A DNA stretch of 54,828 bases from Mesorhizobium sp. (GTDB lineage: Bacteria > Pseudomonadota > Alphaproteobacteria > Rhizobiales > Rhizobiaceae). A model generated the notes under the pieces. The model was not told the DNA's origin, did not search any database, and worked only from the letters and a program-made list of their open reading frames with translations. The position numbers and the translations under genes are program-made. The stretch is taken from assembly GCA_022833215.1 (NCBI GenBank), contig JAIPUZ010000078.1, forward strand, positions 1 through 54,828. The letters are read 5' to 3'. Within the stretch, counting starts at the first letter, position 1; each line of letters begins with the position of its first letter. Below, piece after piece: positions 9,042 to 14,081 of this stretch.

Positions 9042-9587
9042 CTATTCGGTGCGAGCGAACTCGCCGTGATGTTTTTCGGCAGCCGCGCGATAGGCGGCGT
9101 GGGCTTCTTCGGGGGTATCGAACCGGCCCAACATGCGGTCACGGCCATCGGCGTGAATTCGAGCCATCCATTTCCCACGCGACCTATCGAAACAGACACC
9201 CTTGAAGCCGCTCGTATTGCGTGACGGACGCCTTGAATTCTGAAGGTTTTCCGCGTGGGTCGCTTCGCGAAGATTGGCTATCCGGTTGTCCGTCTTGTCG
9301 CCGTTGATGTGGTCGATCTGATTTTCCGGCCAACGCCCACTATGAACGGCCCATACGGCACGGTGCGCCAAGCATTTTTCGCCGGCTATGACCCCGCAGC
9401 GGTATCCTTGCCTATGAACGGTTGCGAAGGCTTCTGCCCCCGCAAACCTTACGTTCCATGTGTTGAATGACCGATCGGAGGTGAACATTTCGCGCGGCCT
9501 CGGGAGCCAGAACAGCTTTCCTGTTTCCGGCTCGTAGCGCAAAAGTTGACGCAACTCTTCTGGGGACGGTAAAGGCTTTTTAGCCAT
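9042..9587 (-). CDS. HNH homing-type endonuclease with AP2 DNA-binding domain
   Basis: A 181-residue protein starting MAKKPLPSPEELRQLL. Residues about 70-125 carry the HNH_3 pattern: AHRAVWAVHSGRWPENQIDHINGDKTDNRIANLR (in pieces: AHRAVW, IDHINGDKTDNR). Residues about 135-175 form an AP2-like domain with SGFKGVCFDRSRGKWMARI and RFDTPEEAHAAYR. This HNH plus AP2 pairing is typical of free-standing mobile endonucleases in phages. It is placed between the major tail protein and the chaperone genes, so it looks like an insertion into an otherwise conserved order. It is presumably selfish and may spread by cutting phages that lack it. Confidence 0.85.
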   Translation of the reverse strand: MAKKPLPSPEELRQLLRYEPETGKLFWLPRPREMFTSDRSFNTWNVRFAGAEAFATVHRQGYRCGVIAGEKCLAHRAVWAVHSGRWPENQIDHINGDKTDNRIANLREATHAENLQNSRRPSRNTSGFKGVCFDRSRGKWMARIHADGRDRMLGRFDTPEEAHAAYRAAAEKHHGEFARTE

Positions 9588-9699
9588 CGGGCGCTCCAAT
9601 CGCTCGCTATGGTCAGGCCCGGCACGGTGTTGACGCACCGCGTCGGGCTGCTTTGTTTCTATCAGAACCAGAACGGAAAGTGAATCGTTCGCGCCCTAA

Positions 9700-10689: not shown

Positions 10690-11139
10690 CTATGCGAAGG
10701 TTCGATATTCGATGCGGACCTGCGTTCGCAGATATGCATCGTCCCGATATGCCCCGAGAATATCTGGGGCCTTGGTGACATTGACCCCGACGCCCTGAAA
10801 CGACATGCACAGGCCCGCTGGAAAATGCGCCGCGATCTTGCCAGCCTGTTCCCGGATCGCGTTTCTATGCGTCTTGCCGGCTCCTGTGCCCACCTTGGCA
10901 ATCGGCCAGCAGAGCGTCAGCAAGAGCAAGCCCGGTCGCTCATGGGGCGCATCAGCTTTGATCAGCAGACGGATTGTGCGGTTCGGCTCGTGGTGGCATT
11001 CGAGATATGGCGCGGGCTTGCCATTGGCTGTTGGCGGGTTTGTCGGCTCGCCATCTGTCCAAACCTTCGTATACGCCGGCAGACACGTCGCTACGCGAGC
11101 CTGGATGGCAAGGCTGATCTTGGTTTCCGTTGTCGCCAC
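10690..11139 (-). CDS. Tail terminator protein (DUF4128-like)
   Basis: A 149-residue protein. Residues 1-30 (KISLAIQARVATCLPA) form the opening helix. A central YLECHHEPNRTIRL and the late segment LRTQVRIEYRTFA match small tail-completion proteins of the DUF4128 class that cap the tail tube and join it to the head. Position immediately before the major tail protein is the usual one. Family assignment rests on pattern and synteny. Confidence 0.65.
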   Translation of the reverse strand: MATTETKISLAIQARVATCLPAYTKVWTDGEPTNPPTANGKPAPYLECHHEPNRTIRLLIKADAPHERPGLLLLTLCWPIAKVGTGAGKTHRNAIREQAGKIAAHFPAGLCMSFQGVGVNVTKAPDILGAYRDDAYLRTQVRIEYRTFA

Positions 11140-11188
11140 TGCTTACCCCATAGAAAAAGGCGGCTCCGAAGAACCGCCCTTTGCTTTT

Positions 11189-11415
11189 GCCTGCCACGCC
11201 GTGCCCTACCTTAACGGGCCTCAACTGGCCTGACCGCACCTCGACACACCTAGCCTGCCGTGCCTAAACCCGCCAGACCTAGCGATGCCGTGCCTCGCCT
11301 GCCCCGACGCACCTTACCCGATCGTGACCCGCCTTGACGCACCTTGACTGCCATGAACGGCCTCAACGCGCCCGGCCTAGCCTTACCAGTCCGCACCTTG
11401 CCTTGCCTGCCGTAG
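11189..11415 (-). repeat. Degenerate GGNNN pentamer array between late genes
   Basis: The minus strand reads as a drifting series of five-base units beginning with GG, such as GGCAA GGCAA GGTGC GGACT GGTAA GGCTA, for about 225 bases. On the plus strand the CC pairs recur every five bases, and in places lie exactly ten apart. The array fills the 330-base gap 11140-11469 between the tail terminator gene and the gene at 11470. It is not a CRISPR (no conserved repeat and spacer), and no start or conserved product suggests that it codes. The paired G runs at three-base spacing fit two-layer G-quadruplexes in DNA or RNA. Confidence 0.75.
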
Positions 11416-11469
11416 AATCCTTGAAAGGACGCGAGGTTGATTGGAGAACTCTCGCCGTAACTCCGCTGC

Positions 11470-11991
11470 TCAGTTTGCCATTTTTGCCGGGGATGGCAAG
11501 TGCCGTTCAACTTCGTCGATGACATCGAACAGGTCGGAAAACTCCTGCAAATCCTTGTAGCGAGCCTTCCAAGCCTGCAATTCGCGCCACGCCCGCTGGA
11601 GCACAAGCTGCCGCGTTTTCTTCTGCGACATGGCATGCCCGCTCTCGCGATAGTGCGGCGCGCCGGCTTCCGCGATGTGGACATAGGCCTTCTGCCGAAC
11701 CGCGGGTCGTTTCTGTTCCTCATCGACGTAGACCGCCACAACGGCCCTGATAAGACCTCTGGCTTGTGCCAAGCGATGCTGGTGCGCCGCTGCCGTGTCA
11801 TCCCACTCAAAGAACGAGTGTAGAGGGCTGTTGTCATGCTTGGCGTCTGCGAGCACATCTTCCGGCGTCAGTTCGCCTTTGCACTGCTTCCGAAGAAGCT
11901 CCAGATGCTCCCCTACGGCCTTGGCATCCTTGACGGCGCCCGGCTGAAACCGGGCGCCTTCGCTGAATTCGAAACCGGCGATCCGCATCAT
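11470..11991 (-). CDS. Conserved phage hypothetical protein
   Basis: A 173-residue protein starting MMRIAGFEFSEGARF. The ATG overlaps the upstream stop (ATGA, 11988-11991) and follows GGAGGCAGC. Residues 40-90 (PEDVLADAKHDNSPLHSFFEWDD, read in parts) and AAHQHRLAQARGLIR form a recognisable conserved phage module, but the function is unknown to me. It lies in one coupled unit with the next gene upstream, so the two probably act together. Mostly helical with no membrane segment. Confidence 0.7.
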   Translation of the reverse strand: MMRIAGFEFSEGARFQPGAVKDAKAVGEHLELLRKQCKGELTPEDVLADAKHDNSPLHSFFEWDDTAAAHQHRLAQARGLIRAVVAVYVDEEQKRPAVRQKAYVHIAEAGAPHYRESGHAMSQKKTRQLVLQRAWRELQAWKARYKDLQEFSDLFDVIDEVERHLPSPAKMAN

Positions 11992-12650
11992 GCTGCCTCC
12001 AGCTTCGCAAGATCGTTTTCGGTCGCGACGTGGAACATGCCTGACATGCCGTCCTTTTCCGGACGCCACTCCCCGACGCCTACCGCGAAGCCAGCGACGT
12101 TCAAGATGTTGAGGATTTGGCTCTCCGACAGCACATTGCCGTTGTACCTGACCAGAAGCTTCGCACTCCAGTCGGCAAACTCACCGCGATACCGCAGGTC
12201 TGCTGTCCCCATCCCCACACGAACAGTGTCTTCGCGCATGGAAGGCGCGCCACCGTCGATCCTGACAAGGTTGTGCCGCGCCTTTGTACCTTCGAAAGCG
12301 CCTTCCACGTCCACATCCTCGCCAAGAATATGGAATGCCTGCCGGGCGGCGATCTTCGTGATGCCTGCGACTGACGTGCAAGCCGTTACGGCCGCGTTCT
12401 TGAAACCGACCGATGGAAAGCCGTAGCCGCCATCCGCCAGACGATACAGGGACGATTCAAAGTCCGCCTTCGGGTCTTTTGCCTCCTTTGCGCCCTTGGC
12501 CACCTTCATCTGCTTGCCGAGCATTTCTAGTTTGGCCTTCTGGCTCCATGCGTGAACGATTAGCGGGCTATCACCAATAACGGTCACTTCCATCAGCCGG
12601 ATATCCAGCTTCGGCAATTCAATTCCTACGTTCTCTTTCTTCACAGCCAT
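11988..12650 (-). CDS. Conserved phage hypothetical protein with Gly-rich C-terminal motif
   Basis: A 220-residue protein starting MAVKKENVGIELPKLD after a GGAG site. It has IGDSPLIVHAWSQKAK near residue 30, GFPSVGFKNAAVTACTSV near 85 and AGFAVGVGEWRPEKDGM near the end. The pattern PLIVH/FKNA/GxGEWRPE recurs in phage proteins of unknown function. The C-terminal glycine loop recalls RAMP-like folds, but that comparison is speculative. It is translationally coupled to the gene at 11470-11991. The overall gene pair is placed between head and tail genes, which is unusual if they are structural. Confidence 0.65.
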   Translation of the reverse strand: MAVKKENVGIELPKLDIRLMEVTVIGDSPLIVHAWSQKAKLEMLGKQMKVAKGAKEAKDPKADFESSLYRLADGGYGFPSVGFKNAAVTACTSVAGITKIAARQAFHILGEDVDVEGAFEGTKARHNLVRIDGGAPSMREDTVRVGMGTADLRYRGEFADWSAKLLVRYNGNVLSESQILNILNVAGFAVGVGEWRPEKDGMSGMFHVATENDLAKLEAA

Positions 12651-12680
12651 GTCAGTCTCCATCGGCGTCCGGCCTGCCAA

Positions 12681-12775
12681 GCCCGGTAACGCACAGGGGT
12701 TCGCTTTCGCGAACGCCGGAGCCGATGAAGCTCGCCGTTCGCGTTACATCCCCATGGCAGCGGGGAATTCGGTTT
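12681..12775. other. Short intergenic segment with hairpin
   Basis: Contains a perfect six-base stem GTTCGC/GCGAAC (12699-12704 and 12709-12714) with a TTTC loop, inside an outer TAACGC/GCGTTA match. There is no T run. It may end transcription of the minus-strand gene at 12776-13171 or stabilise an RNA end. Confidence 0.35.
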
Positions 12776-13171
12776 TCAGGTATTCGCTTCGAGGTAGCTA
12801 AGCGCGGCCGTAAGCATCGACACGAGACAGCCCGGCCGGTAAAAATTCCGGGACTCTTCTCGCAGGAACTGGAGGGCGGCGATTGCGCCTTCCTTGGTCA
12901 CGACTGGCTGATCCCAGTTTTCCAGCGCCTCAAGCGGCGGGCCGTAGGTAGCCTCAACCACCGCTTCCATTTCCTCATCCGTCCACTCCACCGTGTCACA
13001 GATCGGATGCCTCCTGTAAGCCTCGTTGCCGGCTTCGTAGTTGGCGATCGCCTCGATGATGGGGTCAACCGGCGTCGCCTCGGCTGGCACGATGCCAGCA
13101 AGCCCGCAGGCGGGAATAGCGGCAATGCTTGTGAGCGCGCTGCGGCGCGTGATATGGCGTGCGTCAGCCAT
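12776..13171 (-). CDS. Exported hypothetical protein with twin-arginine-like leader
   Basis: A 131-residue protein. Residues 8-32 (TRRSALTSIAAIPACGLAG) form a signal-like segment with an RR pair, resembling Tat or lipoprotein-like leaders, and the mature part is acidic (DTVEWTDEEMEAVVEATYG). Similar short proteins occur in Rhizobiales prophages. It is divergent from the RHH regulator at 13275, and the regulator's operator lies about 75 bases upstream of its start. It could be a lysogeny-expressed envelope protein. Export is inferred from the leader only. Confidence 0.6.
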   Translation of the reverse strand: MADARHITRRSALTSIAAIPACGLAGIVPAEATPVDPIIEAIANYEAGNEAYRRHPICDTVEWTDEEMEAVVEATYGPPLEALENWDQPVVTKEGAIAALQFLREESRNFYRPGCLVSMLTAALSYLEANT

Positions 13172-13218
13172 TCGATGATCCTCCGTAGATCGTCGTTTCG
13201 GTTAGGGCCGGTTCGGTG

Positions 13219-13247
13219 TTGCGAGCATCGTTCCGGCCTGCTATGAT
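13219..13247 (+). promoter_or_regulatory. Promoter of the RHH regulator gene
   Basis: TTGCGA (13219-13224) and TATGAT (13242-13247) are separated by 17 bases, close to the sigma-70 consensus. The expected start site falls inside the left arm of the palindrome described next. Confidence 0.6.
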
Positions 13248-13285
13248 TTCTGACATCAACAATTGTAATTGTCAATGTCAGAAAT
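13246..13285. promoter_or_regulatory. Palindromic operator at the RHH gene start
   Basis: Two perfect 11-base arms, ATTTCTGACAT at 13246-13256 and its reverse complement at 13275-13285, flank 18 bases containing a second palindrome ACAATTGT (13259-13266). The site covers the probable transcription start and the start codon of the RHH gene, and no clear ribosome binding site lies before that ATG. Binding by the RHH protein would shut off its own gene, as is usual for this family. Confidence 0.65.
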
Positions 13286-13616
13286 TAAGAAAAACCCTGT
13301 TGGCCGACCAGCCGTAAATGCAACCCCTCTCACGGTCCGGGTTACCCCCGAATTATTGGAGGCTGTCGACAAGCTGGCCGCGGCGATCAATGGCACCCGT
13401 CCTGATGCTCTCCGCTACGCGCTGCGTACCTACATGGAATCAGACGGCTTCCTTCCACATAAGCCTCGTATCGGCCAAGATTTACTTCTCAACTTTACGC
13501 GCAAGGATGCAGAAGCGCTCAAGAATGCGTTCGGCCCGGATATCGCCGTTCAGCAAGAGGCCCTAGAGGACCTAGTTCGGGACTGGCTCGTCCAGCGCGG
13601 TTATCTCAAAGACTGA
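13275..13616 (+). CDS. Ribbon-helix-helix DNA-binding regulator
   Basis: A 113-residue protein (MSEIKKNPVGRPAVNA) oriented against the late genes. The segment TPLTVRVTPELLEAVDKLAAA (read in two parts) followed by RPDALRYALRTYME is a CopG/Arc-type ribbon-helix-helix of about residues 15-60. The remainder (KDAEALKNAF, QEALEDLVRDWLVQRG) is a helical extension. The start is the ATG inside the palindrome. It probably binds the operator at 13246-13285 and may also control the divergent exported protein gene. Confidence 0.75.
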   Translation: MSEIKKNPVGRPAVNATPLTVRVTPELLEAVDKLAAAINGTRPDALRYALRTYMESDGFLPHKPRIGQDLLLNFTRKDAEALKNAFGPDIAVQQEALEDLVRDWLVQRGYLKD

Positions 13617-13622
13617 CCGATC

Positions 13623-14081
13623 CTATAGCCCCTCTTCCTTGCGAACTTCAGCCGCCACTTCAGACACGATCTGCTGCCAACGCTGTGCCACGAGCGAAAC
13701 CCATGGTTTCGGGGGCTGACCGTTCGCGCCCGCGTGTACATAGCCGCCGTACCGGCTGGTGTAGCCAAGGAAGATGGTTTGACCGATGTCTGTGCCGTTG
13801 ATGACAAGCTCGATAGGGCCGAAATCCATCTCCACGTCACGGCCGGGGTTGTCGAGGCTGAGGCGAGGCATCTCCTTGTTCGACGCGACCAATGACGCTT
13901 TCAGGAAGCCTGTGCGCTTTGGATAGGTCGGCGCCGGGGGCAGATTGTAGACAAGCCTCGTCACCTCGTCTGTGAGTTCGTGTGCCAGCCTCTGTGCTGC
14001 ACGCTGGAAAATGATTTTCTCAGCATTCTTGACCTTTTTCGTCCACGCTTCGATTGTCGCGCTGAAGGTCTGGTTAGCCAC
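13623..14081 (-). CDS. HK97 gp10-like head-tail joining protein
   Basis: A 152-residue protein (MANQTFSATIEAWTKKVKNA). The N-terminal helix, central PPAPTYPKRTGFLKASLVAS and late YVHAGANGQPPKPWVSLVAQRW segments match the HK97-gp10_like family, which acts at the neck between head and tail. Overlaps the minor head protein gene by 8 bases, so the two are coupled. The separating distance to the RHH gene stop is only six bases, with the two genes converging. Confidence 0.82.
   Translation of the reverse strand: MANQTFSATIEAWTKKVKNAEKIIFQRAAQRLAHELTDEVTRLVYNLPPAPTYPKRTGFLKASLVASNKEMPRLSLDNPGRDVEMDFGPIELVINGTDIGQTIFLGYTSRYGGYVHAGANGQPPKPWVSLVAQRWQQIVSEVAAEVRKEEGL

Follow-up and report, generated by a model that had tools for sequence, protein, structure and literature searches.

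VIPR (Viral Interference Programmable Repeat) is a relative of CRISPR described in a 2026 preprint for SUSP1 and P. fulva (type II); according to the main text of that preprint, its guide RNA (vrRNA) is built from 9-16 tandem YNNGG repeats in which GGY is kept and NN varies, and the type II vrRNA bears a structured, invariant 3' tail with a pseudoknot (PMC13142463). Here, we analysed a stretch of 54,828 nucleotides from Mesorhizobium sp. (assembly GCA_022833215.1, contig JAIPUZ010000078.1, positions 1 to 54,828), hereafter the window, and found a pentameric tract on its minus strand which, judged by sequence, is very probably a VIPR guide array of four guides, located in a prophage on a moron-like cassette within the late operon. 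The tract and its parts, named 5' to 3' on the minus strand, are as follows.

11189-11413, minus strand: vrRNA guide array of NN-GGY pentamers, split by 4-nucleotide AGGC/AGTC units into four guides, with AGGC at its end (autocorrelation, unit fit, parse)
11353-11404, minus strand: guide G1, 11 NN units, matching a head-morphogenesis gene of other phages
11304-11345, minus strand: guide G2, 9 NN units, matching a major-tail-protein gene of other phages
11260-11296, minus strand: guide G3, 8 NN units, matching a Neck1 gene of other phages
11196-11252, minus strand: guide G4, 12 NN units, matching a tail-terminator gene

The first-pass annotation had described a five-base GG period at 11189-11415, a position correct to within two bases. 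Indeed, the autocorrelation of GG on the minus strand of this interval peaks at lags 5, 10, 15 and 20 (19, 21, 21 and 17 pairs), and none of 2000 dinucleotide-preserving shuffles reaches the observed values (means of 7-8 pairs over lags 5-20, 7.9 at lag 5; maxima 16-17). Scanning the whole window on both strands in 200-base windows, we found nothing comparable in GG periodicity outside the tract. The fitted unit is NN-G-K-Y, with two free bases followed by G (0.87), G or T (0.70/0.27) and C or T (0.63/0.30). Where the period slips, it is mostly by a single 4-base unit (AGGC, once AGTC); these units divide the tract into runs of 11, 9, 8 and 12 pentamers; the count of 11 depends on taking CGTTC as one degenerate pentamer, and the automatic parse breaks the first run after 9. 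The annotation's impression that spacing and paired G are kept while words drift therefore holds for the GKY part of the unit, but the drifting NN bases are not devoid of information, as they match genes of other phages once a single target base is skipped between successive dinucleotides.

We scanned all four guides at skips of 0-3 bases over loci that had been gathered without using the guides. At a skip of one, G1 matches the head-morphogenesis gene of L001-L005 in 20/22 positions and that of L082 in 21/22, its first nine units being perfect (18/18). G2 matches the tail-protein gene of L019 in 18/18 (peptide KAKGTRNAG), G3 the Neck1 gene of L001 in 16/16 (peptide (D/E)TIYLGYT) and G4 the tail-terminator gene of L001 in 23/24, so that L001 has targets of three of the four guides. 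At skips of 0, 2 and 3 the scores remain at background, with at most 16/22, 16/18, 13/16 and 17/24 for G1-G4 when the array's own skip-3 match is excluded. Because the sites lie in frame with homologous genes, the skipped base is the third, or wobble, position of the codon, and a single guide may thereby cover a whole protein motif. G2's target protein in L019 and the major tail protein of the window (phrog_158, E=2e-5) share 42% identity; each of the four targets thus has a homologue among the carrier's late genes. The matches in these targets end at the 4-nucleotide units, adjoining units scoring 0-5 of 8, and therefore these units act as guide boundaries here. The same punctuation is seen over 48 array segments, where the spacing of successive GGYNGGY motifs equals 4 modulo 5 in 152 of 236 intervals.

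Does the one-base skip hold for guides other than those from which it was read? For a blind test we took 156 guides from other loci, each with 9 units or more, and searched 193 loci totalling 1.76 Mb, their arrays masked. These loci were gathered partly using the window's guides, none using the tested guides; 26 duplicate identifiers were dropped beforehand and a few near-identical loci stayed. Ten guides have a best match with at most one mismatch at skip 1, six of them perfect, against 0, 0 and 1 at skips 0, 2 and 3, and shuffled guides give 0/468 at each skip. The excess shrinks stepwise at two mismatches (18/156 versus 11/468 shuffled) and three (52/156 versus 111/468), and several of the matches fall repeatedly on a single conserved peptide shared by many phages. 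A smaller all-against-all test at the same threshold of one mismatch gave 6/181 guides at skip 1, the window's own four included, and 0, 0 and 1 at skips 0, 2 and 3; matches with two mismatches occur there in shuffles too (7/181). On the sequence evidence, the blind test favours a skip of one.

The targets were also sought as exact one-skip patterns in viral contigs. As the pattern itself largely fixes the peptide of a site, context was recounted from residues outside it. The first nine units of G1 occur in 12 stretches (five of them contigs already in the locus set), 9 in a head-morphogenesis context and 3 elsewhere. G2 occurs in 85 stretches, of which 82 agree in the next residues, SM, and 3 lie elsewhere; 43 distinct DNA versions were present among the 80 counted, and the nine units in reverse order gave 1 stretch. 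For G3 we found 47 stretches in 24 DNA versions, 41 in Neck1 context and 6 elsewhere; a strict rule gives 40, owing to an in-frame stop right after the site in L183, where the context is unchanged. Ten units of G4 occur in 2 stretches, the contig of L001 and L218 (another context, 20/24).

Of the two genes upstream of the array, the first connects it to the VIPR system.

11988-12650, minus strand: gene A, 220 amino acids, phrog_4652, Vipr (RAMP-type protein; SUSP1 Vipr match, model fold)
11470-11991, minus strand: gene B, 173 amino acids, phrog_15946, candidate vipr-accessory gene (vap), overlapping the vipr stop by ATGA

Gene A aligns with the solved SUSP1 Vipr (36pp_D, PDB 36pp) at E=1e-7, and its structural model appears similar to type III CRISPR Csm chains. 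Of 67 sequences that contain gene A, 65 also have gene B; this count includes duplicates as well as the copies in the window. Searches of both proteins with PADLOC and NCBIfam gave no match up to E=0.1, and the candidate vap had none in plasmid records. Some weak Foldseek rows for the vap model are winged-helix proteins, which we do not count as evidence.

Is a pentamer array a common companion of Vipr? Relatives of genes A and B were collected by protein from viral contigs, phage records and genomes. In 61 of 65 loci, or in 52 of 55 groups at 95% DNA identity, gene A has a GKY array of period 5 on its own strand no more than 3 kb away; to count, an array had to exceed every one of 329,531 control windows, and the 65 loci are what remained after 14 duplicate identifiers were dropped, near-identical loci being retained. 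Three loci without an array (L014, L040, L052) are contigs ending in or just after A or B, and the fourth (L016) has one short run. The array stands before A, between A and B, or after B, and its sequence drifts among relatives while the period is constant, which is what the first-pass annotation had expected of related phages. A distant-DNA search for phages with the region gave no match. Vipr occurs in 7 of 297 genomes from the host order, including that of the window.

Several of these loci are worth describing in their own right. L068-L073 are the Gordonia phages UmaThurman and Ecliptus, the Mycobacterium phages Quico and Brocalys, Pseudomonas LESphi2 and the cyanophage Cy-LDV1; all have pentamer arrays, and their Vipr homologues are annotated as hypothetical proteins only. 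The arrays at L037:6171-7440 and L042:6071-7060 are about 1 kb long with some guides repeated verbatim, which suggests guide duplication within an array, and L061 and L062 show three separate array segments around one Vipr gene.

The array is flanked by two structured elements.

11404-11465, minus strand: leader with an H-type pseudoknot and a weaker third hairpin (covariation, 13 loci)
11153-11182, minus strand: intrinsic-terminator-like hairpin and U-tract directly after the array (folding, minimum free energy -19.8, z -3.1)

The leader, just 5' of the array and common to 13 loci, comprises two crossing stems, P1 (11464-11461 with 11446-11443) and P2 (11455-11451 with 11435-11431), each compensatory at three pairs. 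Over the 13 loci, pairing is kept in 100% of cells for P2, 90% for P1 and 69% for the third helix. The covariation score of 0.345 was reached by 0 of 500 shuffles (0.122), and slid controls gave 0.04-0.17. One of five covariation measures, further pair types, is ordinary (reached by 94/500 shuffles), and the leader folded by itself has an unremarkable minimum free energy (z -0.5). Relatedness among the 13 loci makes the covariation supportive but not conclusive. Another conserved family of hairpin leaders, GGAGCCGG..CCGGCTGGCAAGGATCA, lies ahead of the array and after the vap candidate in L010, L013, L015, L018, L021, L023, L046, L057, L058, L063 and L066; L012 carries both families and many loci carry neither. 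Rfam returned no family in 11 sources, and therefore no known hammerhead lies above threshold there. The hairpin at 11153-11182 was not listed by a consensus terminator scan.

In L044, the first guide of the array matches L016:6177-6206, the pseudoknot leader of another phage's array, in 20/20 positions at skip 1. By its sequence this is a possible anti-VIPR guide, and some guides may be directed against the leaders of competing arrays.

The first-pass annotation had regarded the tract as filling the only large gap in the structural genes. The gap is real, but it is no ordinary gap: it forms the 3' end of a 2.5-kb insertion among the head- and tail-family genes, which lie on the minus strand. 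This insertion contains, besides genes A and B, the array and the terminator-like hairpin, the following features.

11140-13622, no strand assigned: moron-like cassette, between Neck1 (13623-14081) and the tail terminator (10690-11139)
12776-13171, minus strand: 131-amino-acid protein, N-terminus twin-arginine-like by eye, opening the cassette operon; relatives in 3/57 loci
13275-13616, plus strand: divergent ribbon-helix-helix (RHH, CopG-type) protein; relatives in 7/57 loci
13246-13285, no strand assigned: 19-nucleotide inverted repeat with 89% complementarity, spanning the RHH gene start (sequence)

A moron cassette is an extra transcription unit between structural genes with its own regulation and terminator. 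The insertion is missing from the relatives L001, L002, L006 and L007, where Neck1 directly abuts the tail-terminator gene, and its RHH gene with the inverted repeat and its terminator-like hairpin could correspond to the other parts of this definition. The RHH protein is a probable regulator of the cassette and, judging from its position and symmetry, the inverted repeat could be the operator; a promoter scan showed none on the strand of the cassette operon. In some relatives the cassette lies elsewhere among the tail genes (ten flanking proteins, six loci tested): upstream of the tape-measure gene in L010, L019 and L026, upstream of the baseplate hub gene in L044, and between tail proteins in L041. 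An HNH endonuclease with an AP2 domain, possibly a homing endonuclease, is encoded among the window's tail genes at 9042-9638 on the minus strand.

What else could the tract be? That it is a degenerate pentanucleotide microsatellite or a coding sequence is scarcely credible: its short period and the chance open reading frames that overlap it are what such readings would have in their favour, yet decay of a microsatellite would wear all five positions equally, whereas GKY is kept while NN drifts, and a five-base period with 4-base units holds no reading frame, so the annotation's statement that the tract is not a gene stands. Neither microsatellite nor gene would account for the matches to late genes. 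The annotation itself had raised structural DNA or RNA elements as possibilities, namely G-quadruplexes of two layers, signals for packaging or recombination, or a tract slowing transcription in the late operon. Regular GG spacing and the late-operon position speak for such an element, but it would leave unexplained why the variable bases match four late genes of other phages, why arrays accompany Vipr and show 4-nucleotide punctuation, and why actinophage arrays occupy other positions relative to genes; we consider it very improbable.

Two further explanations accept the tract as VIPR and differ in its use. A once functional relic, now decaying, would be suggested by units that deviate from GGY (TTC in G1, GAT in G2). 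However, Vipr and the candidate vap have open frames and keep the residues conserved in alignments (from which L041 and L059, whose coordinates gave a stop, and L063 and L037, with short matching stretches only, were left out for vap), and targets are still matched by G2, G3 and G4 in 18/18, 16/16 and 23/24 positions and by G1 in 20-21 of 22, which makes a relic unlikely. An array regulating the carrier's own late genes or the host would fit the homology of all four targets to the carrier's genes, two of which flank the insertion, and the partial matches in the carrier's own copies (G1 18/22, G3 14/16 with QTIFLGYT, G4 19/24). Yet every guide matches other phages better; the own site homologous to the G2 target has diverged from KAKGTRNAG to KFKTTLDGG, the best G2 score anywhere in the window being 14/18, and the own mismatches at G1-G3 alter amino acids. 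Self- or host regulation is, on this balance, quite unlikely.

Several observations weigh against a VIPR array directed at other phages. Of the 156 blind-test guides, 146 lacked a target at up to one mismatch in what is a small database, and one of the ten matches, L022, falls in a frame interrupted by stops and could be fortuitous. The best full-length targets of G1 and G4 (21/22 and 23/24) are not perfect, and G3, with 8 units, is below the 9-16 given in the main text of the preprint (PMC13142463). Foldseek found nothing below E=1 for the candidate vap model. The conserved 3' tail described there (PMC13142463) was not seen at the window, where a terminator-like hairpin lies on the 3' side. 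Finally, none of 61 genomes from the host genus has a match to G3 even when one mismatch is allowed, so the targets are known here from phages of a wider group and not from the genus sample.

By analogy with the published system, as far as its main text goes, the array would be transcribed and then loaded on Vipr subunits holding the GGY triplets, and the complex would bind matching DNA of an incoming or co-resident phage (PMC13142463). The bound complex could then repress the head and tail genes of the rival, while the diverged copies of the carrier would escape. On this analogy, the prophage most likely acts against rival phages sharing its cell, silencing their head, neck and tail genes. 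Wobble skipping would hinder synonymous escape, and a phage may in this way target protein motifs of its rivals yet spare itself. We further propose, as a tentative reading towards which we do not quite lean, a distinct VIPR architecture in which one precursor has a 5' pseudoknot leader and 4-nucleotide punctuation, each guide is directed against a different late gene of which the carrier has a diverged copy, and the carrier escapes its own guides via amino-acid changes.

How does the locus compare with other programmable systems? A CRISPR array consists of near-identical long direct repeats with unique spacers. The tract is not of this kind, as the annotation had recognized: Tandem Repeats Finder and the unit parse find drifting short units only. 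Unlike Class 1 CRISPR-Cas systems with a Csm3/Cas7 backbone (type III), the locus has no CRISPR repeats and its guides are not contiguous spacers; no cas genes were seen beside the array. TIGR-Tas systems differ from the window in protein and guide layout. Their arrays are likewise phage-linked tandem guide arrays.

The window shares with VIPR, as presented in the main text of the preprint, a RAMP-type Vipr homologue, GGY/NN pentamer guides, a phage-borne location, the one-base skip on wobble positions and matches to competing mobile elements (PMC13142463). It differs in running several guides in one tract with 4-nucleotide units between them, in placing the pseudoknot 5' of the array instead of in the 3' tail, and in having a moron-like cassette with a divergent RHH gene and guides that match head, neck and tail genes (PMC13142463). 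The architecture seen here may be what the same text calls 'staggered arrays with overlapping vrRNAs' (PMC13142463). In summary, the locus most likely belongs, by its sequence, to the already known VIPR kind. Its value lies in the independent decoding and the punctuation rather than in the existence of the system: in alphaproteobacterial phages, four guides that can be read together with their targets confirm the gapped guide code by sequence alone, and they suggest how one array packs several guides and keeps them apart. What the main text of the preprint does not describe in this form (PMC13142463) is the set of 4-nucleotide guide boundaries, the covarying 5' pseudoknot leader and the moron-like cassette.
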